Source: Corynebacterium tuberculostearicum
GTDB taxonomy: Bacteria; Actinomycetota; Actinomycetes; Mycobacteriales; Mycobacteriaceae
Assembly (NCBI RefSeq): GCF_016894265.1
Contig: NZ_CP069791.1
Span: forward strand, 1,302,001 to 1,366,000
Direction: 5' to 3'
DNA length: 64,000 nucleotides
This document shows, one piece after another, positions 28,890 through 41,610 of the stretch. Below the pieces are notes generated by a model, which did no database searches, was not told the DNA's origin, and was given only the letters and a program-made list of their open reading frames with translations. The translations under genes and the position numbers were made by a program. Each line of letters starts with the position of its first letter. Position 1 is the stretch's first letter.

Positions 28890-29057
28890 ATGCATTTTAT
28901 GATCTTGGTCCTCTTCCTCGTCGCTGGCATGTTGGTGGGCGGTGCGTGGTCTGCCTACCAACAGGGATCGAAGGCAATGACAGTAGTAGCCTCTTTATTG
29001 GCCGCAATAACCGCGGTGGCAGCAATCTCGTGGATGGTAGGAGCGTTCGGTAAATGA
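28890..29057 (+). CDS. 55-aa two-helix membrane protein in his operon
   Basis: A short frame from ATG 28890 to TGA 29057. The product is almost wholly hydrophobic: helix 1 about residues 3-22 (FMILVLFLVAGMLVGGAW), a short 'SAYQQGSKAM' loop, and helix 2 about 31-50. It starts 5 nt after hisB and its stop overlaps the ATG of the MFS gene as ATGA, so it is almost certainly translated. C. glutamicum has a similar small gene at this position in its his operon. Function unknown; it could assist the MFS carrier. Confidence 0.75.
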   Translation: MHFMILVLFLVAGMLVGGAWSAYQQGSKAMTVVASLLAAITAVAAISWMVGAFGK

Positions 29058-30304
29058 GCAATACCCAAGAAACTAATATCTGGAAGGTTCCGGGTTATAC
29101 CGCGACCATGTTGGCCATCGCCGCAGCCTTCGGTGCTTGGTCCATCCTCCTTCCAGTGGTGCCGCTAGCGGTCATTGACTCCGGCGGCTCAGCCACCTTG
29201 GCGGGCTCATCCACGGGCATCTTCATGGCCTTCACCGTGCTTACCCAGATCATCTCCCCGTGGCTGCTGCGCCGGTGGGGCTACCGCCGCGTGATGGCAC
29301 TGTCCGCTTTTACCCTGGGCGTACCTGCCTTTGGCCACCTCTTGGGTACCGATGCTTGGGTTGTCCTACTCTTTTCTGCTCTGCGCGGCGTGGGCTTTGG
29401 CGCGCTGACCGTTTCTGAGTCCGCGCTTATTGCGGAACTGGCGCCCGTACGCCTGCTGGGCAAGGCTACTGGCATGATTGGTGTTTTCACTGGCCTGGGC
29501 CAGATGGTCTTTTTGCCCCTAGGGTTGATCATGGCGGAAAAGCTGGGTTATGCCTCGACGTATATCACCGCCGGCATCATTGGCTTTGTGGGCTTTGGTC
29601 TGTGCCTGCGCATTCCCAAGATTAAGGTCACGCTCGCCTCCGATACCGAAGAGGAGCCGAACCTGATCCGCGTTCCTACGTGGAAGCTAGTGCTCGTGCC
29701 CGCGCTGGCGCTAACGACGTTTTCTATGAGCTATGGCGCCGTCTCGTCCTTCCTGCCGCCGGCGGTACAAGAACTCGATGCAGAGCGCGGCGCCAGCTTG
29801 GCCGGCATCATGCTGTCCATCGTGGGCGGCGCCGCCATGATTTTCCGCTACCTCGCGGGCATGGTGGCAGACCGCGTGGGCACTCCCGGCCGGCTCTACA
29901 TCCCCGGCCAGGTAATGGCCATTGTGGGTGTGCTCGCCATCGCCGTACCTCTTTATCTCGATGGTTCCGTATGGTGGCTCGTGCTTGGTGCCTTCCTGTT
30001 CGGTGGTGCGTTCGGTATTGCGCAAAACGAGGCCCTGCTGTCGATGTTTGACCGCTTGCCTCGCGAGCGCGTCTCGGAGGCTTCTGCTATCTGGAATATC
30101 TTCTATGACGGCGGCACCGGCTTGGGCTCGACCCTCTTGGGTGCCTTGGTTGCCGGCTACGGCTATGCGGGGGCTTTCGGGGCCGGCGTGGTCATCCTCG
30201 TCGCAGGCGTTGTGATGACGTTGGCAGATTTTGTCCTTGGGCGCACCCGCGTGAGCGAAACCAACGATATCCGGACGCGTCTGCGTCGCATGCGTAAGGT
30301 ATAG
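29054..30304 (+). CDS. Major facilitator superfamily transporter
   Basis: 416 aa, twelve predicted helices. The loop after helix 2 carries 'SPWLLRRWGYRRVMALSAF' as the MFS motif A equivalent; the matching loop in the second half is 'AGMVADRVGTPGRLYIPG'. It resembles uptake or efflux carriers of small organic solutes; the substrate is unknown. It sits in the middle of the histidine operon, coupled to the 55-aa gene by ATGA and followed 3 nt later by hisH, so a link with histidine or an intermediate is a reasonable guess but unproven. Confidence 0.88.
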   Translation: MSNTQETNIWKVPGYTATMLAIAAAFGAWSILLPVVPLAVIDSGGSATLAGSSTGIFMAFTVLTQIISPWLLRRWGYRRVMALSAFTLGVPAFGHLLGTDAWVVLLFSALRGVGFGALTVSESALIAELAPVRLLGKATGMIGVFTGLGQMVFLPLGLIMAEKLGYASTYITAGIIGFVGFGLCLRIPKIKVTLASDTEEEPNLIRVPTWKLVLVPALALTTFSMSYGAVSSFLPPAVQELDAERGASLAGIMLSIVGGAAMIFRYLAGMVADRVGTPGRLYIPGQVMAIVGVLAIAVPLYLDGSVWWLVLGAFLFGGAFGIAQNEALLSMFDRLPRERVSEASAIWNIFYDGGTGLGSTLLGALVAGYGYAGAFGAGVVILVAGVVMTLADFVLGRTRVSETNDIRTRLRRMRKV

Positions 30305-30307
30305 CCC

Positions 30308-30940
30308 ATGGCAAAGACGGTCGCATTATTGGATTATGGCGCGGGCAATGTGCGCTCAGCCCAGCGCGCGCTGGAGCGGGTGGGCGCGGACGTCACCGTT
30401 ACCGCGGACCCCAAAGAAGCGGTGGAAGCGGACGGTCTTCTTGTCCCTGGCGTGGGTGCCTTTGCTGCCTGCATGCGTGGGCTACGGGCGGTGCAGGGCC
30501 CTCGGGTCATCGGCCAACGCTTGGCAGGAGAGCGGCCGGTGTTGGGCATTTGCGTAGGCATGCAGGTGCTTTTCGACGCCGGAGTGGAACACAACATCAA
30601 CTCCACCGGTTGCGGCGAGTGGCCCGGCACCGTGGAAAAGTTGCAGTCTGCGGTGCTGCCGCACATGGGGTGGAATACCGTAGAAGTACCCGTCGGCAGC
30701 GATATGTTTGCCGGAGTGGCCGAAGACGAGCGTTTTTATTTCGTGCATTCCTACGGCGTTCGCCGTTGGGAATTGGAAACGGAGATTACCCGTCCGCCGC
30801 AGGTGAGCTGGGCCGAGCACGCGGGCGATAGGTTTGTCGCCGCGGTAGAAAACGGTGCCCTGTGGGCGACCCAATTCCACCCTGAGAAATCCGGGGACGC
30901 CGGTGCTCAGCTTTTGGAAAACTGGATGCGCACGCTCTAG
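30308..30940 (+). CDS. hisH: Imidazole glycerol phosphate synthase, glutamine amidotransferase subunit
   Basis: 210 aa. It hydrolyses glutamine and passes ammonia to HisF (32.6 kb). Class I amidotransferase triad: Cys82 in GICVGMQ, and His-Glu in '[12 protein letters not shown]' near the C-terminus. '[16 protein letters not shown]' is the HisH N-terminal motif. It follows the MFS gene by 3 nt and is followed by hisA. Confidence 0.95.
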
Positions 30941-30954
30941 GTAGGATGAAGGAT

Positions 30955-31743
30955 ATGACTTTTACGCTCTTGCCAGCAGTCGATGTATCTCAAGGCCAAG
31001 CCGTGCGCTTGGATAAAGGCGAAGCAGGCACCGAAACCTCGTATGGTTCCCCGCGCGATGCCGCGCAAAAGTGGCAGTCCCAAGGCGCGCACTGGCTGCA
31101 CTTTGTGGATTTGGATGCGGCTTTCGGCCGAGGCTCCAACCACGAAGAAATGGCGATGATTACCCGCGATCTGGGGGTAAATGTGGAGCTTAGCGGCGGC
31201 ATTCGGGACGATGCCGCGGTGGAGCGCGCGCTGGCTACCGGTGCGCAGCGCATTAGTATCGGCACGGCTGCTCTAGAACAGCCGGAATGGATCGAGGATA
31301 TCCTCGCGCGCTACGGAGATAAGGTCGCCGTGGACCTTGCCGTGCGCGAAGATGGCGGCGAATGGCGTACCGCCGGCAATGGCTGGGTCTCCGATGGCGG
31401 CGATCTGTGGGAGGTACTCGAGCGCCTCGATGCCGCCGGATGCCAGCGCTTTGTGGTGACCGACGTGTCGAAAGACGGCACGCTCACCGGACCTAATATT
31501 GAGCTCCTGCGTGAGGTAGCGATGGCAACGGAGGCAAAGATCACCGCCTCTGGTGGCATTTCTAGCGTGGAAGACCTGCGCGAGCTCGCTCTTTATGTCA
31601 ACGAGGGCATCGATTCCGCCGTTATTGGCAAGGCCCTGTACGAGGGGAATTTCACCCTCGACGAAGCACTCGCTGCGGTGGCCGAGGTAGAGCCGCTGCC
31701 GGCGGAAGAAACCATTGACCCTTACGACCCCGAGGACAACTAA
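30955..31743 (+). CDS. hisA: ProFAR isomerase
   Basis: 262 aa, (beta-alpha)8 barrel that performs the Amadori isomerisation of ProFAR to PRFAR. The catalytic pair is Asp10 ([10 protein letters not shown]) and the Asp in '[14 protein letters not shown]'; phosphate loops 'ELSGGIRDD' and '[11 protein letters not shown]' are present. I choose ATG 30955, which gives the family N-terminus '[10 protein letters not shown]'; an ATG three codons earlier is possible. In many actinobacteria this protein (PriA) also does the TrpF step; corynebacteria carry trpF elsewhere, so a histidine-only enzyme is expected here. Confidence 0.93.
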
Positions 31744-31746
31744 GTC

Positions 31747-32529
31747 ATGATGGAACCCCGCGAGTTGGTGGCCTTCGCGGAGGCGGCCGTAGACCAAGTA
31801 GAACCCATTTTTCGCTCCGGCCTCGGAGCTGCGCCCGCCCGTTTTAAGGGGCAGGGAGATTTCGCCACCGAGGTAGATCTCGTCATTGAGCAACAGCTGC
31901 GCGATATCTTGACCCAGATGACCGGCATCCCGGTCTATGGAGAAGAATCAGGCGGCAGCGTGCTCGATACCGTGTGGGTGGTAGATCCGATTGATGGCAC
32001 CGCAAACTACTCTGCCGGAAACCCCATGGCCGGCATCCTGGTGGCGCTCATTCATGAGGGTGCGCCCGTTGCTGCGGTATCTGACTTCCCGCTCCTGGGG
32101 CGCCGTCTGGTCACCTGCGATGGCTCCCCACTGCGCTCCGTAGGTGGGCCTGCCACTGGTTTTGGTGGAGGGGACGAAGCAATGGGATTTGATGAAGCAC
32201 GCGGTCATGTAGGCTGCTCTTCCCATCTGCCCACCGACATTTTCCACGAGCTGCGCGAGACCGGACTGCGCCCGCGAATGACCGGTTCTGTGGGGCTTGA
32301 TAATGCCTTCGTCGCGCAGGGTGTGTTCGATGGCGCGATTAACTTCTCTCCGCACCCATGGGATAACGCCGCGGGAGCGCTGCAGATCCGGGCAGCCGGT
32401 GGCGTTGTTACCGATCCGGAAGGAAATCCGTGGACCGCGCAGTCGCGCGGCATGGTGGCAGGTACCCCGCAGGTCCATGCGACCATCGTGGATAGCCTGT
32501 CTCGTCATACCGGTGCTTTTCACCGTTAA
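31747..32529 (+). CDS. impA: Inositol monophosphatase family phosphatase
   Basis: 260 aa. Metal-dependent phosphatase of the IMPase fold: 'GQGDFATEVDLVIEQQL' with the first Asp, 'YGEESGG' with Glu, 'VWVVDPIDGTANYSAGNPM' with the DPIDGT metal site, and 'PHPWDNAAGALQIRAAGG' with the final Asp (WDNAAG). The family includes myo-inositol-1-phosphatase and the HisN histidinol-phosphatase. Position between hisA and hisF makes histidinol phosphate a tempting substrate, but the C. glutamicum homologue at this locus is named impA and its main HisN is elsewhere. ATG 31747 or 31750 are both possible. Confidence 0.87.
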   Translation: MMEPRELVAFAEAAVDQVEPIFRSGLGAAPARFKGQGDFATEVDLVIEQQLRDILTQMTGIPVYGEESGGSVLDTVWVVDPIDGTANYSAGNPMAGILVALIHEGAPVAAVSDFPLLGRRLVTCDGSPLRSVGGPATGFGGGDEAMGFDEARGHVGCSSHLPTDIFHELRETGLRPRMTGSVGLDNAFVAQGVFDGAINFSPHPWDNAAGALQIRAAGGVVTDPEGNPWTAQSRGMVAGTPQVHATIVDSLSRHTGAFHR

Positions 32530-32559
32530 AATTTAAACCTTAAAAAGGAGGCGGCCGCC

Positions 32560-33330
32560 ATGGCTGTAGCCGTACGCGTGATCCCCTGCCTAGATGTGGA
32601 CCAAGGCCGCGTGGTCAAGGGCATCAACTTTGACAACCTGCGCGATGCCGGCGACCCAGTGGAGCTAGCCGCGCGTTATGATTCCCTAGGAGCCGATGAA
32701 CTTACCTTCTTGGACGTCTCTGCTTCTAAGCAAGACCGCTCCACCATGCTCGAGGTCGTGCGCCGCACTGCGGACCAGGTATTCATCCCATTGACGGTGG
32801 GTGGTGGAGTTCGCAGCGTTGATGACGTCCGGGAATTATTGCGCGCCGGGGCAGATAAGGTCTCTGTTAACACCGCGGCCATTAAGAATCCGGAACTGCT
32901 GCGCGAAATGGCTGAGATTTTCGGGGCTCAATGCATCGTGTTGTCCGTTGATGCTCGCCGGTGCCGCGAAGAGTATGCGCCATCCGGCTTTGAGGTCACC
33001 ACGCACGGTGGTACGGAATCAGCTGGGATCGACGCCATCGAATGGACACGCCGCGGCGAAGAACTCGGCGTAGGGGAGATCCTCCTTAACTCAATGGATG
33101 GCGATGGCACAAAGCAAGGGTTTGACCTTGAATTGCTGCGCGCCGTGCGCGCAGCGGTGACCATTCCCGTTATCGCCTCCGGCGGCGCGGGAAACGCCGC
33201 AGACTTCCCACCGGCAGTTGCGGCCGGCGCCGATGCCGTCTTGGCAGCAAGCATTTTTCACTTCGGTGAGGTAGAAATCAGCGACGTGAAAAACGCCCTG
33301 GATGCTGCTGGCTACGAGGTGCGCCGATGA
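32560..33330 (+). CDS. hisF: Imidazole glycerol phosphate synthase, cyclase subunit
   Basis: 256 aa. Partner of HisH; closes the imidazole ring, giving ImGP and AICAR. Barrel motifs: Asp12 in '[15 protein letters not shown]', '[12 protein letters not shown]', 'SVDARR' with the second catalytic Asp, and '[12 protein letters not shown]'. An excellent AAGGAGG lies 8 nt before the ATG, the strongest in the operon, so translation starts independently here after a 30-nt gap. The stop overlaps the hisI start (ATGA). Confidence 0.96.
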
Positions 33331-33689
33331 GTATCCCGGGCAACTATGAACTTAACGGGGACATCGCCAAGCAGCTCAAGCGCAATGACCAAGGCTTGGT
33401 GCCGGCCATTGCCCAAGCTGAATCTGGTGAGGTGCTGATGATGGCCTGGATGGATGACCACGCCTTGGCCCATACCCTGGCCACCCGCAAGGCAACGTAT
33501 TTTTCGCGCTCGCGCAATGAATATTGGATCAAAGGAGAAACTTCTGGAAATACCCAAGAGGTGCTGGGCGTTCGCCTTGACTGCGATGGAGATACTATTC
33601 TGCTGACCGTGCGGCAGCGCGGCGGCGCCTGCCATACCGGTGACCGCACGTGCTTTGACGCCACCGATCTCCTAGGAGGGCAACCGTGA
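33327..33689 (+). CDS. hisI: Phosphoribosyl-AMP cyclohydrolase
   Basis: 120 aa, monofunctional: no pyrophosphohydrolase (HisE) domain, which must be encoded elsewhere. It opens the adenine ring of PR-AMP. Metal residues are visible in '[27 protein letters not shown]' (Asp-Cys-Asp, Cys-His, Cys). '[26 protein letters not shown]' is the N-terminal family motif. Both ends overlap neighbours by 4 nt (hisF before, membrane protein after). Confidence 0.95.
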
Positions 33690-34324
33690 AGGCTAGACGC
33701 CTTGGACCACTACTTATCGCTGTAGGAGCCATCGTAGTGTGGCTGGCCTCCCGTGCTACGTGGGTGGTAGCCGCCAGCGAGGACGACAAGGCCGGATCTG
33801 CGGCCAATGACATCATCGGCTCGGCCTGGTCGCTGGAAATCATGGCCTTGACCCTGGTTCTGGTAGCCGGTGCCGTCGCAGGGATGGCGCTGCGTCGCGT
33901 AGGTAGGCGAGTAGTGGGCATCGTGTGCGCCCTCGCGGCCGCGGCTAGTGCATGGACCCCGGTGAGCCTGTTGACTGCGGGCGCGGACGCCGAGCGCGCC
34001 CAGAAGATACTGCAGGGAGCCTCAGCCAATGAAAACGCCGTAGACTCTGCGCAGATTTCTGACTGGGCCACAGTCGTTTCCACCGAGGTGCATTCTCTGG
34101 GACCAATTCTGGCCCTAATAGGTGCGGCAGCGGCCCTATTCGGTGCGGTCATGCTTGCGCGCAATCCAGGCGTGGATAAGGCGAAGGCGTCTAGCAAATA
34201 CGAAACCCCAGCGGCACGGCAGGCAAAGTTGGAGGAGGATTTGGAAACCTCTTCCGACTCCGGGCGCGTGATGTGGGACGCCCTTGATAGTGATATCGAT
34301 CCCACCGATATTGACAAAAAATAG
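33686..34324 (+). CDS. TIGR02234-type membrane protein (trp-region associated)
   Basis: 212 aa. Three or four helices (about 8-24, 50-68, 76-94, 137-156) and an acidic cytoplasmic tail rich in Glu/Asp. In mycobacteria the family member lies between trpE and trpC; here trpE is absent but a trpC homologue follows 84 nt later, so the order is preserved. GTG start overlaps the hisI stop by 4 nt, fusing it to the his operon. The function is unknown. I read it as a remnant of the ancestral trp operon that stays intact. Confidence 0.8.
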
Positions 34325-34408
34325 CCCCGTTTCCTGTGTAATTTCCGGAACGGCACGCTAGCGGGTTAACCTAAGTGTGATTTTAATCGCCCGTGGAGGG
34401 AGGTGCTG

Positions 34409-35239
34409 ATGCCTACGCCCATTGCCGTTGACCACCTAGTTGCAGGAGTCTTGGAGGACGTCGCTGCGCGGGAAGCCCGCGTGTCTTTCAAAGAGGTGAA
34501 GGCGCGCTCGCGTGACATGGAACCTCCCCGGGATGCCCGCGCGGCGTTGCTACGCACAGGCTGCTCGGTCATCACGGAGCTCAAGCGCGCCGTACCCTAC
34601 GGCGGCGAAATCGCACATGTTGGCTCTGCGGAACAGATGGCGGAATGGGCTCGCACTTTTGAACACTGCGGTGTACATCTCATGGCATGCCAGACTGATT
34701 TCCGCCGCTTCCACGGTTCTTTAGAAGATATGGCAGCTGCCCGTGCTGCGATTGATATTCCCATGATGTCGCGCGATCTCATCGTGGACCCTTATCAAAT
34801 TCATGAAGCCAGGTGCTTTGGGGCCGATGCTATTCCGTTGCAGGTTGAACTCTTAGAGCAAGCTCGCCTGGAGGCACTTTTGGACCGGGTGGAATCGCTC
34901 GGGATGGCCGCCATCGTTGAGGTGCGCAACTGCGCCGAGGTTGACCGCGCAATCAAGGCGGGAAGTAGCATCATCGCCATTAATGCATGGTCGTTGGCTT
35001 CGGATGCCATTAACCGCGAGGCGTTTAACGATATCGCCCCGGGCTTACCCGAATCCATCCTGCGCATCGCAGTAGGCGGGGTAAACAACGCGCGCAACCT
35101 GTTTCAATATGCTTCACGCGGCGCCGATGCAGTTTTGGTGGGCGAATCAGTCATGGCTGCCCAGGATCCTACGGCGCTGGCGTGCTCTTTGGTGGCTGCC
35201 GGGCAGCATCCAGCGTGTCCCGCGCGCAAGATAGAATAA
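34409..35239 (+). CDS. TrpC (indole-3-glycerol phosphate synthase) homologue with altered active site
   Basis: 276 aa from ATG 34409, behind a strong GGAGGGAGG. It aligns along its length with actinobacterial TrpC: 'VAAREARVSFKEVKA', 'DPYQIHEARCFGAD', 'ADAVLVGESV'. From family knowledge, catalytic Glu57, Lys59, Glu171 and Asn192 are kept. However, the Lys of the LRKDF motif is Arg122 (SRDL), the SPS motif is V62-P-Y64, the Arg-Asp after Asn192 is W194-S195, and the Glu-Ser pair of the ESG motif is V222-G223. These changes should abolish normal IGPS catalysis. The frame is intact, so selection for some other role is likely. Confidence 0.8.
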   Translation: MPTPIAVDHLVAGVLEDVAAREARVSFKEVKARSRDMEPPRDARAALLRTGCSVITELKRAVPYGGEIAHVGSAEQMAEWARTFEHCGVHLMACQTDFRRFHGSLEDMAAARAAIDIPMMSRDLIVDPYQIHEARCFGADAIPLQVELLEQARLEALLDRVESLGMAAIVEVRNCAEVDRAIKAGSSIIAINAWSLASDAINREAFNDIAPGLPESILRIAVGGVNNARNLFQYASRGADAVLVGESVMAAQDPTALACSLVAAGQHPACPARKIE

Positions 35240-35284
35240 GGCCCCAACTAGCTGGTTGGGTGGGGGATAAGGCACACTGGCTAC

Positions 35285-36238
35285 GTGCACACAGAAATTC
35301 TTGCAAATATTCCGTCTCCGCCGCAGGGCGTGTGGCAGGTGGGACCACTTCCCATCCGTGCGTACGCGCTATGCATCATCGTGGGCATTATCGTCGGCCT
35401 GCGCATGACCTTGCGCCGATATACTGCTCGCGGCGGTAACCCAGACACAGTATGGGATGCTGCCATCGTGGTTATCCCAGCCGGCATCATTGGCGGGCGG
35501 CTCTACCACGTCATTACCGATAACCAGAAATACTTCTGCGAGAGCTGCAATCCCGCGGACGCGCTGAAGATTACCAATGGCGGACTGGGCATCTGGGGCG
35601 CCGTAGCCTTGGGCGCACTAGCTTTGTGGGTGCTTTTCAAAGTGAAGAAGGTGCCGCTCGGTCCCTTTGCTGACGCAGTGGCGCCAGGCCTCGTCCTGGC
35701 GCAGGCGATTGGACGCCTAGGTAACTGGTTTAACCAAGAGCTCTATGGGCGCCCGACCGACGTTCCGTGGGCTTTAGACATCTATTACCGCGTCAATGAA
35801 AATGGCGGCTACGCTCCCGTTTCCGGACACTCCACGGGTGAGGTCATGACCTCGGTACACCCGACCTTCCTGTACGAGCTCGTGTGGAATGTCCTGATCT
35901 GCCTTTTCCTCTTGTGGGCTCACAAAGCCTGGAAGTTGGGGCACGGGCGCATCTTTGCCCTCTATGTCATGGGCTACACATTGGGCCGCTTCTTTATTGA
36001 AGGGATGCGTTCCGATGAGGCGACCCATATTTTTGGGGTCCGCGTAAATATCATCGTGTCGCTTGTGATCTTTGTCATTGCCGCGATCGTCTTCTTCTTG
36101 CTCGATAAGCGACGACAAGGTCCCGAGTCCCCCGAAGAGGTGGATCCTAAGTATTGGGCGGAGCGCCGGGATACTGATGGGCACAGCCATGAGCACGCGG
36201 TATCTGATGGGCAGCAACCGGGTTCTTTATCGACGTAA
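35285..36238 (+). CDS. lgt: Prolipoprotein diacylglyceryl transferase
   Basis: 317 aa with about seven helices. It adds diacylglycerol to the lipobox Cys of prolipoproteins, the step before LspA (3.4 kb); several substrates are encoded in this window. The Lgt signature '[22 protein letters not shown]' contains the essential Arg and Asn residues; '[23 protein letters not shown]' near the C-terminus is the second conserved block. GTG start. The C-terminus is a polar, His/Glu-rich extension (about 270-317) typical of actinobacteria. As in mycobacteria, it follows the trp region and precedes pyk. Confidence 0.95.
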
Positions 36239-36394
36239 ATACTGCCCAAGTGTGTCCGGTTGGTTTTGTTTTTGTGGGAAATAGGGCATTTTGGGGTGCC
36301 CGTTCAGAAAATGAACCCGAGAAATTGTGGCCCCAATCCTTTCGAAGGAGTAGGTTGGGGAGTGTTCAGTTTCCCCCGACGGAATAGGCCAATA

Positions 36395-37813
36395 ATGCTG
36401 GATAGAAGAACGAAGATTGTTTGTACTCTCGGCCCTGCCGTTGCTAGCGAGGATGGCATCTTGCGCCTCGTACAGGATGGTATGGACGTTGCCCGCCTGA
36501 ATATGTCTCACGGCGAGCATGCAGACCACGAGGCGAATTACAACTGGGTGCGCCAAGCCACCGATAAGACCGGTCGCGCCGTCGGTATCTTGGCGGACCT
36601 CCAGGGCCCTAAGATTCGCCTTGGCCGCTTTATCAATGGCGAGGAGCAGTGGGATAACGGCCAGATCGTCCGCATTACCGTGGACGATATCGAAGGCACC
36701 CATGACCGCGTCTCCACCACCTACAAGGGTCTGGCGAAGGACGCCAAGCCAGGTGACCGCCTGCTGATCGACGACGGCAAGGTTGCCGTTGTTTGTAAGG
36801 AAGTCGACGGCAACGACGTCGTCTGTGAGGTTACCGAAGGTGGCCCGGTTTCCAATAACAAGGGCGTTTCCCTCCCTGGTATGGATATCTCTGTTCCGGC
36901 TTTGTCGGAAAAGGATATCGCTGACCTGCGCTTCGCTTTGAAGCTCGGCGTTGACCTCGTGGCACTGTCCTTTGTCCGCTCCCCAGCAGATGTGGATAAG
37001 GTCCATGAGATTATGGACGAAGAGGGTCGCCGCGTTCCGGTCATTGCGAAGCTGGAAAAGCCTGAGGCAGTAGACGCGCTCGAGTCTATCGTGCTGGCTT
37101 TCGATGCCATCATGATTGCCCGTGGTGACCTCGGTGTTGAGGTGCCGCTGGAGCGCGTGCCGCTGTTCCAGAAGCGCGCTATCCAGATTGCTCGCGAGAA
37201 CGCTAAGCCGGTCATCGTGGCTACCCAGATGCTGGATTCCATGATTTCTAACCTGCGCCCGACCCGTGCAGAGGCTTCCGACGTGGCTAACGCCGTTCTC
37301 GATGGCGCTGACGCCGTTATGCTCTCCGGTGAGACTTCCGTGGGTATTGACCCGCAGAACGTCGTGCGCACGATGTCCAAGATCGTGGCTAACGCTGAAG
37401 ATGGCGGCAAGGTTCCACCGCTGACCCACGTTCCGCGCACTAAGCGTGGTGTGGTGTCCTATTCCGCCCGCGACATTGCCGAGCGCCTCAATGCGAAGGC
37501 CATCGTAGCCTTTACTACCTCCGGCGATACCGCTAAGCGAGTGGCTCGCCTGCACTCCCAGCTTCCGCTGTTGGCGTTTACGCCGGACCCAGCGGTTCGC
37601 TCCCAGCTGGCTTTGACGTGGGGTGCTGAGACCTTCTTGAGCCCGCACGTTAAGTCCACCGATGACATGATGGAAGCCATCGATGATGCATTGCTGGAGA
37701 TGGACAGGTACGAGGAAGGCGACATGATTGTCGTCATTGCTGGTACTCCTCCAGGAATTGCTGGCAACACCAACATGATTCAGTGTCACTTGTTGGGTGA
37801 AACCAAGAAGTAG
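36395..37813 (+). CDS. pyk: Pyruvate kinase
   Basis: 472 aa. It converts phosphoenolpyruvate and ADP to pyruvate and ATP. The N-terminal 'RRTKIVCTLGPAVASEDGI', the active-site 'ADLQGPKIRLGRF', metal-binding 'IAKLEKPEAVDALE' and 'MIARGDLGVEVPLERVPLFQKRAI', and 'ATQMLDSMI' are complete; the C-terminal allosteric domain ends 'GIAGNTNMIQCHLLGE'. ATG 36395 is used because the protein then begins like the C. glutamicum enzyme; codons upstream in the frame are unlike any pyruvate kinase. 156 nt separate it from lgt. A strong terminator follows. Confidence 0.97.
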   Translation: MLDRRTKIVCTLGPAVASEDGILRLVQDGMDVARLNMSHGEHADHEANYNWVRQATDKTGRAVGILADLQGPKIRLGRFINGEEQWDNGQIVRITVDDIEGTHDRVSTTYKGLAKDAKPGDRLLIDDGKVAVVCKEVDGNDVVCEVTEGGPVSNNKGVSLPGMDISVPALSEKDIADLRFALKLGVDLVALSFVRSPADVDKVHEIMDEEGRRVPVIAKLEKPEAVDALESIVLAFDAIMIARGDLGVEVPLERVPLFQKRAIQIARENAKPVIVATQMLDSMISNLRPTRAEASDVANAVLDGADAVMLSGETSVGIDPQNVVRTMSKIVANAEDGGKVPPLTHVPRTKRGVVSYSARDIAERLNAKAIVAFTTSGDTAKRVARLHSQLPLLAFTPDPAVRSQLALTWGAETFLSPHVKSTDDMMEAIDDALLEMDRYEEGDMIVVIAGTPPGIAGNTNMIQCHLLGETKK

Positions 37814-37826
37814 ATTTTTGGCACGA

Positions 37827-37874
37827 GCGCCGCGACCCACCCTTTAACACGTTCCACGGGTCGCGGCGCTTTTC
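37827..37874 (+). terminator. Rho-independent terminator of pyk
   Basis: GCGCCGCGACCC (37827-37838) pairs perfectly with GGGTCGCGGCGC (37858-37869) across a 19-nt loop, followed by a T-rich tail from 37870. Confidence 0.9.
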
Positions 37875-37878
37875 TATA

Positions 37879-37896
37879 TACATTTATACAAATGTA
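37879..37896. promoter_or_regulatory. AT-rich palindrome TACATTT-N4-AAATGTA
   Basis: A perfect 7-bp inverted repeat with a 4-bp spacer directly after the pyk terminator, in an AT-rich stretch unlike its surroundings. It could be an operator of the metal exporter gene downstream, but it lies 176 nt before that gene's promoter, so a role is uncertain. Confidence 0.3.
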
Positions 37897-38071
37897 GATT
37901 TATATTTACCTCGAGTGCGCTCAGCGGTTGCTTTCCTGACATGCGGCTGCAGTACTTTTTGGTTGTTCATGTTTCAGCTTCTCTACACATTCAAAGGACA
38001 ACTGCACAATGACCTAAATCAGGCCGACTTGGCCTCAGTGGCTGCGCTTACCGCCATCCATTTTCATTTAA

Positions 38072-39757: not shown

Positions 39758-40233
39758 GAGGGTGTCAAGTTGTTTGTGTGTGGGGCTAGGTTTATAGGTA
39801 TTTGTCGAAGCTGTCGGGGTAGGCCACGGCCATTTGGTTAATGGCTTGTTTCCAGCCGGAAACTCGGGTCCCTTCCATGAGTCTGCCGGTTGTCGCTGAG
39901 ACTCGTTTGCCCTGCTTCGCTCTCTTGGCAGCTTGTCTGTCTTCGATATTGCAGATCATCAACCATAGCGTCTTGAGCGCTGATTCATTGTTAGTGAACT
40001 GCACCCTGTTGCGGGTAGCTTTCCGCAGTTCATTGTTGAATGATTCAATCGAATTCTTCGTGTAAATGACCTTGCTGGCTGCTGGTGGGAACTGGAGAAA
40101 CGGTACGAAACGCGCCCATGCATCTCGCCAGACTTTGACTGAGCGTGGATACTTTTCTGCCAATTCAGAGGCTTCAAATTCGTCTAAGGCAGCCTGAGCT
40201 GTGGACTCGTCCGTGGCGGTGTAAATCTTTTTC
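39758..40233 (-). mobile_element. Truncated IS256-family copy (3' end only)
   Basis: 476 bp that repeat, at about 95% by eye, the 3' end of the full element that follows (from 40234). It begins with the terminal repeat GAGGGTGTCAAGTTGTTTG and encodes 142 codons of transposase C-terminus, with the proper ending 'NQMAVAYPDSFDKYL' and stop at 39792. It is broken at 40233 where the second element starts. It interrupts the IS1634 transposase gene. Confidence 0.88.
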
Positions 40234-41610
40234 GAGCGTGTCAAGTTGTTTGTGTGTGGGGCTAGTTTTACAGATATTTGTCGAAGCGGTCGGGGTAGGC
40301 CACGGCCATTTGGTTAATGGCTTGTTTCCAGCCGGAAACTCGGGCTCCTTCCATGAGTCTGCCGCTGTCGCTGAGACTCGTTTGCCCTGCTTCGCCCTCT
40401 TGGCAGCTCGTTTGTCTTCGATATTGCAGATCATCAGCCACAGCGTCTTGAGCGCTGATTCATCGTTGGTGAACTGCACCCTGTTGCGGGTAGCTTTACG
40501 CAGTTCATTGTTGAATGATTCAATAGAATTCGTCGTATAGATAACCTTTCTGGCCGCTGGTGGGAACTGCAGAAACGGTACGAAACGAGCCCAAGCATCT
40601 CGCCAGACCTTGACTGAGCGTGGATACTTTTCTCCCAATTCAGAGGCTTCAAATTCGTCTAAAGCAGCACGGGCTGTGGACTCGTCTGCGGCGGTGTAAA
40701 TCTTTTTCAACGCCGCCGATACACCCCGTCGATCGCCGTAGGCTACCCACCGGTTAGCGGCACGAATCAGGTGCACGATACAGGTTTGCACCATAGAGTT
40801 CGGCCACGTTGCCTCAACTGCTTCTGGCAGGCCTTTAAGCCCGTCACAGCAGACAATAAAGACGTCTTTGACCCCACGATTGGAAAGATTGGCGCATACC
40901 TGCGCCCAGGATGAAGCGCTTTCTTCTTTGGCAATCCACGATTCCAAAAAGTGCTTGATACCGTCGGGAGCCACGCCGATTGCCATGTACGCGGACTTAT
41001 TGACCACTAGGCCGCCATCGCGGATTTTAATGCGCAGCGCGTCCAGGAAAATGACCGGGTAGAACTCGTCTAGCTGGCGGTTTTGCCAGACCATGACCTC
41101 ATCGAGGACGGCATCGGTGACTGCGGAAATCGTCTCATGGGAAATATCAACACGCATCGCCGTTGCCATATGGTGCTGGATGTCCCTAATTGTCATCCCA
41201 CCGGCGTACAAGCTAACGGTCATGTCATCGACATCGGTCAATCTCCTCGAGCCTTTAGGGACCATAGTCAGCAAGAATGTGCCAGCCCTATCCCTCGGCA
41301 CATCAACGGTAACTGGCCCGTAGTTAGAATCCACGGTCTTTGGATACGACCCGTTGCGGTGATTGTCTGTTCTAGCTGCAGCTTTAGCGCTCCTGTCGCC
41401 AGACTCGTAGCCCAGGTGGGCATCCATTTCAGCGTTGAGTCCCCTGGTAATCGAGGCTTGCAACATGCCGCGAACCAGGTCGTTGGCATCCGTTGTAGAC
41501 GTGCCTAGGTCATCAATCAGCTTCGCGATTTCAGGGTTAGCAAGAAGCTTCTTTTCAATCGCATCAATCTTGGCCTTATCAGCCGGATCTCGTCTCGCCA
41601 CAGTAGTCAT
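40174..41610 (-). CDS. IS256-family transposase, C-terminus frameshifted
   Basis: 478 aa from ATG 41610. Mutator-type DDE transposase: first Asp in 'VIFLDALRIKIRDGG', second in 'FIVCCDGLKGLPEAVEA', Glu in 'YTTNSIESFNNELRKATRNR', all present. Compared with the neighbouring truncated copy, one base is missing near 40364 (GCCGCTGTC instead of GCCGGTTGTC). This replaces the normal last ~30 residues, whose stop would be at 40268, with a longer unrelated tail that runs into the other copy. The catalytic core is intact; activity is doubtful but possible. Confidence 0.85.
   Translation of the reverse strand: MTTVARRDPADKAKIDAIEKKLLANPEIAKLIDDLGTSTTDANDLVRGMLQASITRGLNAEMDAHLGYESGDRSAKAAARTDNHRNGSYPKTVDSNYGPVTVDVPRDRAGTFLLTMVPKGSRRLTDVDDMTVSLYAGGMTIRDIQHHMATAMRVDISHETISAVTDAVLDEVMVWQNRQLDEFYPVIFLDALRIKIRDGGLVVNKSAYMAIGVAPDGIKHFLESWIAKEESASSWAQVCANLSNRGVKDVFIVCCDGLKGLPEAVEATWPNSMVQTCIVHLIRAANRWVAYGDRRGVSAALKKIYTAADESTARAALDEFEASELGEKYPRSVKVWRDAWARFVPFLQFPPAARKVIYTTNSIESFNNELRKATRNRVQFTNDESALKTLWLMICNIEDKRAAKRAKQGKRVSATAADSWKEPEFPAGNKPLTKWPWPTPTASTNICKTSPTHKQLDTLEKDLHRHGRVHSSGCLRRI

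Follow-up and report, generated by a model that had tools for sequence, protein, structure and literature searches.

A TrpC paralogue with exchanged active-site residues has probably taken on a new role in most Corynebacterium species examined

The closest described relative of the protein reported here is the actinobacterial indole-3-glycerol phosphate synthase (IGPS, TrpC) of Mycobacterium tuberculosis (MtIGPS; PDB 3qja, 3t44; PF00218), a member of the (beta-alpha)8 family. According to the accessible text of PMC10591298, the MtIGPS substitution K119R lowers kcat more than 2700-fold, K119A, E57A, K59A, E168A and E219A show no activity, and E219Q is 10-fold faster than wild type. A second precedent is SubHisA, a Corynebacterium PriA/HisA narrowed after the lateral gain of trp genes; it shares its presumed cause with our case (PMC13055916, available part), but SubHisA kept one of two reactions, whereas our protein has apparently been left without the single reaction known for it and would have to do something else. 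A search of the literature found no paper describing this altered TrpC paralogue. The primary paper on SubHisA is said to be Noda-Garcia 2013, and BMC Biology 2:15 reportedly deals with trp-operon transfer. Public annotation names the altered copies TrpC, which gives many corynebacteria two apparent IGPS enzymes, the second of which has very probably lost the IGPS job. A network study of C. pseudotuberculosis, for instance, lists "trpC2" as essential and as a drug target, and in the available portion of that source either gene may be meant (PMC5097352). We analyzed a 64,000-nucleotide stretch of a Corynebacterium tuberculostearicum chromosome (the window) together with 151 Corynebacterium genomes, drawn evenly from a larger genus. 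In most Corynebacterium species examined, a spare TrpC with swapped active-site parts has probably taken a new job. The window gene had been described, from its letters alone, as a relic of the ancestral trp operon; we regard a widespread, apparently retargeted TrpC that is still annotated as TrpC as the more interesting finding.

The window protein, here called TrpCL, aligns with TrpC from end to end, as had been proposed. It matches the Pfam IGPS family (PF00218) over residues 8–256 with 167.3 bits (cut-off 27, E=4.7e-49) and MtIGPS chain 3qja over residues 5–272 with 240.5 bits. The NCBI TrpC equivalog cut-off is missed (281.7 bits versus 329 for the best model, NF001369). The nearest named record is from C. 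tuberculostearicum, at 99% identity, in a comparison from which records of the own genome were perhaps excluded. The locus reads hisH-hisA-impA-hisF-hisI-TIGR02234-trpC-like-lgt-pyk (Table 1) and thus contains the order hisI, TIGR02234, trpC-like, lgt, pyk described earlier; lgt adjoins TrpCL in nearly all loci compared. The ribosome-binding site read in front of the gene is present as GGAGGGAGG and is also kept in many loci of the window's clade. An Rfam search of window positions 29000–38000 gave no match up to E=1, and a promoter scan returned one site versus 0.7 expected by chance.

Table 1. Genes and sites of the TrpCL locus (positions counted from the first letter of the window)
Feature	Position	Strand	Remarks
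hisH, glutamine amidotransferase	30308..30940	+	PF00117, 70 bits
hisA	30946..31743	+	named by family knowledge
impA, inositol monophosphatase family	31747..32529	+	PF00459, 133.9 bits
hisF	32560..33330	+	named by family knowledge
hisI	33327..33689	+	PF01502 match at that place in own genome
TIGR02234 / Trp_oprn_chp membrane protein	33686..34324	+	212 aa; PF09534 160 bits, TIGR02234 141.8 bits
Putative promoter or regulator site of TrpCL, block TAAGTGTGAT	34372..34381	+	28–37 nt before start codon
Ribosome-binding site GGAGGGAGG	34395..34403	+	upstream of TrpCL; read from sequence
TrpCL, altered TrpC (IGPS) paralogue	34409..35239	+	start ATG 34409; 276 aa plus stop
lgt homologue	35285..36238	+	3' of TrpCL; named by family knowledge and order
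pyk (pyruvate kinase) ORF	36260..37813	+	likely start ATG 36395; named by family knowledge

All 151 Corynebacterium genomes contained a PF00218 match. A single TrpC was found in 40/151, with an intact active site in every case (40/40), and an altered copy occupied the TrpCL locus, in the same neighbourhood, in 108/151, a recurrence that is not due to chance. The protein search detected no recognisable altered copy in 3/151 genomes: G058 (deleted), G008 (eroded) and G130 (82% complete). At least one further PF00218 match accompanied the altered copy in 106 of the 108 genomes, the exceptions being G143 and G118 (53% complete). The altered pattern is common to C. striatum, C. minutissimum, C. mucifaciens, C. 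silvaticum and C. propinquum. In the other genera of the family, 139/140 genomes had a match (not G181), and Amycolatopsis and Prauserella controls displayed the true TrpC pattern. The ancestral arrangement is preserved within the genus: the one single-copy locus read gene by gene, L145, has the order hisF-hisI-trpE-TIGR02234-trpC-trpB-trpA-lgt (trpE, trpB and trpA named from their sequences), TIGR02234 lies within the fetched stretch beside TrpC in 40/40 single-copy genomes, and trpA was found in 39/40 of them (not in G112, 95% complete). Together these observations bear out the proposal that the TrpCL locus is the native trp locus without trpE, trpB and trpA. The TIGR02234 / Trp_oprn_chp protein occurs in 150/151 genomes, including those without TrpCL (G058, G008) or without trp genes (G143), so its "tryptophan-associated" name may reflect old gene order only.

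Corynebacteria had been said to use a separate trp operon, and a search for a second trpC(F) in the window's genome (one contig, 99.98% complete) located it. The second PF00218 gene is trpCF (485-aa ORF) in a complete trpE-G-D-CF-B-A operon away from the TrpCL locus. The operon is of proteobacterial type by model scores: with 552.9 bits, its TrpE exceeds the cut-off (494.65) of the proteobacterial model TIGR00565, and its TrpCF passes NF006945 (555.7 versus a cut-off of 380). Although both proteins belong to PF00218, trpCF differs from TrpCL in being fused to TrpF, in its place in a trp operon, in its intact active site (E57, K59, K122, E171 and E222 in 31/31 rows) and in its distant position in the tree.

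Phylogenetic analysis placed the altered copies together. The FastTree phylogeny comprised 171 rows (109 altered, i.e. the 108 plus L183 of another genome; 41 single-copy; and 21 outgroup rows, a sample made up of the best-scoring fetched loci of other family genera), with four near-duplicate Corynebacterium loci excluded. In it, all 109 altered copies grouped in a single clade with support 100, the 41 single-copy rows stood next to them (82), and the outgroup was separate (99). An IQ-TREE phylogeny of 68 rows (35/109 altered, 15/41 single-copy, 12/21 outgroup and 6/31 trpCF; fast rows L131–L140 absent) supported the altered clade with 100/100 and the outgroup with 100/99. There, a branch of 2.6 changes per column (100/100) carried trpCF and arose from within the single-copy rows, so that these no longer formed one clade. 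We take this attachment to be a long-branch effect; the altered clade is untouched by it. The altered copies are one clade of native actinobacterial TrpC, and a descent of TrpCL from trpCF is ruled out by the tree (100/100 split, branch of 2.6).

The residue exchanges attributed to TrpCL are correct relative to MtIGPS. R122 stands in place of the general-acid Lys (K119), V62/Y64 in place of S62/S64, W194-S195 in place of R191-D192, and V222-G223 in place of E219-S220. By contrast, the equivalents of Glu57, Lys59, Glu168 and Asn189 are intact (E57, K59, E171 and N192) and Gly224 is kept, so the description of the active site as dismantled, right for the named losses, overstates the change as a whole. 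Half of the catalytic set is retained, and elsewhere in the pocket there are new residues, conserved in their turn. Q95, P143, Q145, R173, C52 and D127 are new compared with MtIGPS, at what is the same chromosomal locus with trpE/B/A gone. Across the 108 altered copies, the catalytic residues are widely retained (E57 in 101, K59 in 96, E171 in 103, N192 in 97), and residue 122 is Arg in 94 and Lys in 5. Position 222 is Leu (68), Val (23) or Met (12) and never Glu; position 194 is Trp (60) or Arg (38); position 62 is still Ser in 32/108. P143 (93), R173 (98) and Q145 (72) are frequent, and P128, Y129, H132 and E133 occur in 108/108. In single-copy and outgroup rows alike, the 13 pocket columns spell EKSSKL(I/M)EHNRES. 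Conserved cysteines were considered as a possible metal site: C52, C121 and C136 are frequent novelties of the altered copies, but true TrpC already has C94 and C270 in many cases.

Since TrpCL has both the K119R change and, at the E219 position, a hydrophobic residue, effective IGPS activity would be unlikely. A working second IGPS that aids tryptophan synthesis could draw on the retained E57, K59, E171 and N192, on the public naming of relatives as TrpC, and on the dispensability of the E219 carboxylate in MtIGPS, where Gln works. Yet K119R alone is so costly there and E219A inactive, TrpCL scores below the NF001369 cut-off, and G143 keeps TrpCL without trpA or trpCF; such a role is hardly to be expected and is the least probable of the readings considered.

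We lean towards a different reading, in which a former TrpC has been retargeted, as an enzyme, to a probably phosphorylated ligand outside tryptophan and histidine synthesis. On the earliest altered branches (L117, L123, L108, L113), E222, S62 and S64 are already changed and K122 is still present; R122 and R173 are the next changes, and S223G and R194W the latest, on branches that include the window. In the proposed course of events, a lineage would have acquired a further trp operon, of proteobacterial type and including trpCF, while the native TrpC stayed at the ancestral locus. The old locus would then have lost trpE, trpB and trpA, freeing TrpC from making indole-glycerol phosphate. Its pocket may have changed stepwise in the order seen on the branches, with K122 giving way to Arg only after E222, S62 and S64, and with the E57-K59-E171-N192 cluster and Gly224 mostly kept, whereas the presumed anthranilate-ring positions would have turned polar or smaller (L95Q, L143P, I145Q). 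We assume that residues 95, 143 and 145 lie against the anthranilate ring, as in the S. solfataricus enzyme; in that case the site would have retained its ribulose-phosphate end, and its aromatic end would have become polar. The product of these steps would no longer be an effective IGPS and may act on another sugar-type phosphate that retains the ribulose-phosphate part of the former substrate and carries a polar group instead of anthranilate. A narrower version, speculative and rather improbable, is that TrpCL handles a polar relative of CdRP, namely a 1-amino-1-deoxyribulose 5-phosphate (Amadori) compound with an amino acid-like group, perhaps in metabolite repair. TrpCL would then be a new Corynebacterium enzyme, arisen because the old TrpC was released when a whole trp operon was acquired, and a bolder form would have the locus recruit biosynthetic leftovers, HisH likewise. 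If a new function is found, this would be a clear natural case of pathway replacement freeing a gene for reuse. Single-copy relatives and graded intermediates are alive today, so each step of the change is testable.

Selection on the altered copies was assessed by frame integrity and pairwise dN/dS (NG86, only pairs with 0.1<dS<1.2). Interrupted frames were sought among the 108 altered ORFs and none was found; one ORF was short (L140, 241 aa). The frequent frameshifts in close relatives that would have spoken for simple decay are therefore not seen. In the window's species group, TrpCL dN/dS was 0.016 (8 loci, 15/28 pairs), below the values of HisF (0.075), HisI (0.107), TIGR02234 (0.079) and Lgt (0.071). 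Altered copies elsewhere gave 0.037 (wider clade), 0.156 (second large clade, 30 loci) and 0.185 (third), true TrpC of single-copy species gave 0.193, and the C. glutamicum-like clade had no TrpCL pair within the dS range. Identity over the window's clade is unexceptional for TrpCL (0.713 versus 0.805 for Lgt and 0.590 for TIGR02234). Pocket conservation was compared with 20000 random column sets. For 16 columns, some of them selected with the data in view, the numbers of random sets as conserved were 104 in the core (the 99 rows remaining after we chose to remove ten degenerate rows, L131–L140, for long branches and motif loss), 3 in the window's clade and 15151 in the C. glutamicum-like clade. 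For 14 columns chosen beforehand from IGPS knowledge, they were 200 in the own clade and 2 in the second large clade; over the core (2409) or all 109 rows (5793), these 14 columns were no better than chance. Each large subclade thus guards its own version of the pocket, and there is no genus-wide shared one.

These results leave the wording "relic" unsupported, given the lack of interrupted ORFs, the dN/dS of 0.016 and the new conserved pocket residues, and simple decay is ruled out for the window's clade by the first two. The companion suggestion of the sequence-only reading, retention for a new function, gains support from the same two observations and from persistence without hisI or trpA/trpCF. 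Its idea that the protein may bind a phosphorylated ligand is plausible. Decay does fit some lineages: in G058 the gene is cleanly deleted and TIGR02234 runs straight into lgt, in G008 the eroded copy is a barely recognisable 238-aa ORF, and the C. glutamicum-like loci have lost E57/K59 and evolve fast (identity 0.688 versus 0.915 for HisF). Rows L133–L135, L139 and L140 are also fast-evolving. The C. glutamicum gene cg2293 is very probably the orthologue, judged by name, length and neighbour cg2294 in the accessible parts of PMC6691914 and PMC3896937; if it is among the C. glutamicum-like rows (261–268 aa), E57/K59 and the pocket are gone from it, unlike in the window protein. As far as the available account goes, the evolved C. 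glutamicum strain EVO5 has mutations in both dtxR and cg2293 and tolerates the frameshifted cg2293. The missing E57/K59 and unconserved pocket of the C. glutamicum-like clade, the chance-level conservation of the beforehand-chosen pocket columns over the core and over all rows, the losses in G058 and G008 and this tolerance count against retargeting. A functionless, decaying relic kept by chance would fit the losses in G058 and G008, the fast evolution of the C. glutamicum-like clade and of rows L133–L135, L139 and L140, and the tolerated frameshift. Such a relic is nevertheless very unlikely: the window's clade already contradicts it, interruptions are absent from all 108 ORFs, dN/dS in the measured clades (0.016–0.185) compares with 0.193 for true TrpC, and one altered clade spans the genus.

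TrpCL also persists where neighbouring pathways are lost. The hisI gene (PF01502) is missing in 11/151 genomes, 10 of which are at least 98% complete; a TrpCL ORF is present in 11/11, with E57, K59, E171 and N192 kept in 10/11 (L140 is the exception). A role tied to histidine synthesis is thereby weakened. One genome, G143 (99% complete), is also without PF00290 (trpA) and trpCF; its TrpCL reads EKVYRPQERNWVG, and its locus (L210) keeps TrpCL, impA, TIGR02234, HisA and a Cys-less HisH. Genomes that lack His synthesis keep a HisH-like ORF beside impA, with hisF and hisI gone from the stretch (L210:7840-8565, minus strand; upstream of impA in L064, L065, L066, L067, L068 and L083). The nucleophile Cys motif GICVGMQ is replaced by AIGTGMQ, AVGTGMH or A/VVGAAMD in 7/7 such loci, and the Cys-less motif recurs in five named near-duplicates (L240–L243, L248). 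A HisH match was absent in L119, L140 and L283. The Cys-less HisH is possibly a second reused biosynthetic leftover.

The retention of HisH without its nucleophile indicates that non-catalytic retention happens at the TrpCL locus, which bears on whether TrpCL itself is still an enzyme. As a pseudoenzyme, it would be a non-catalytic barrel retained for binding, for regulation or as a structural partner, e.g. by sensing a phosphorylated metabolite or pairing with another protein. The 99 core rows are near-invariant at C52, D127 and R41 (99 each) and F27 (98), followed by P143 (93), R122 and R173 (92 each), A93 (88) and Q95 (85). The degenerate rows, where E57 or K59 is often lost, still keep F27 (9/10), C52 (9/10) and D127 (10/10). 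F27, C52 and D127, which lie off the pocket by our reading and are at least as conserved as it, would fit a structural or binding role. Because they mostly survive in degenerate rows that have lost catalytic residues, they slightly weaken the enzyme reading in favour of a binding protein, and the invariance of P128, Y129, H132 and E133 points the same way. On the other side, the four catalytic residues are kept together in the core rows (E57 and E171 in 99/99, entropy 0), and TIGR02234 is disfavoured as a partner, being kept where TrpCL is lost (G058, G008). We therefore treat a pseudoenzyme as possible but somewhat doubtful, and continue to lean towards a retargeted enzyme.

A lead on expression comes from the window's clade and from C. 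diphtheriae. In the window's clade, whose loci include near-identical species, the block TAAGTGTGAT lies at most 100 nt upstream in 14/26 loci, where base shuffles predict 0.00; it was found within 100 nt upstream in 0/82 other altered copies and 0/40 single-copy loci. Its distribution suggests a putative promoter or regulator site of TrpCL's own in this clade. In C. diphtheriae, DIP1555, named "Indole-3-glycerol phosphate synthase TrpC", is iron- and DtxR-induced (log2 1.24 and 1.02), in a table whose accessible part holds many iron-using proteins and no other trp gene (PMC13001254). Judged by locus numbering, DIP1555 is probably TrpCL. A possible tie to iron is a lead from this induction and from the joint mutation of dtxR and cg2293 in EVO5. 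A literature search for locus tags neighbouring DIP1555 found nothing, and the main text of the C. diphtheriae TraDIS papers (PMC10166564, PMC12022263), in the parts available, does not mention the gene tags sought.

Three minor observations concern neighbouring or related genes. In G002 (C43:43015-43754) and G022 (C14:11137-11665), the IGPS domain of trpCF falls into two frames, possibly through a sequencing error or a real loss; the TrpCL of G022 belongs to the degenerate rows. At window positions 39792–40244 (minus strand), an ORF translation resembles, by eye, the end of a mutator-type transposase. The related loci L082, L092 and L102 hold an extra ORF of ~400 aa between TrpCL and lgt (gaps of 1266–1397 bases), with a lipoprotein-like signal (LTGCS / LTACS).
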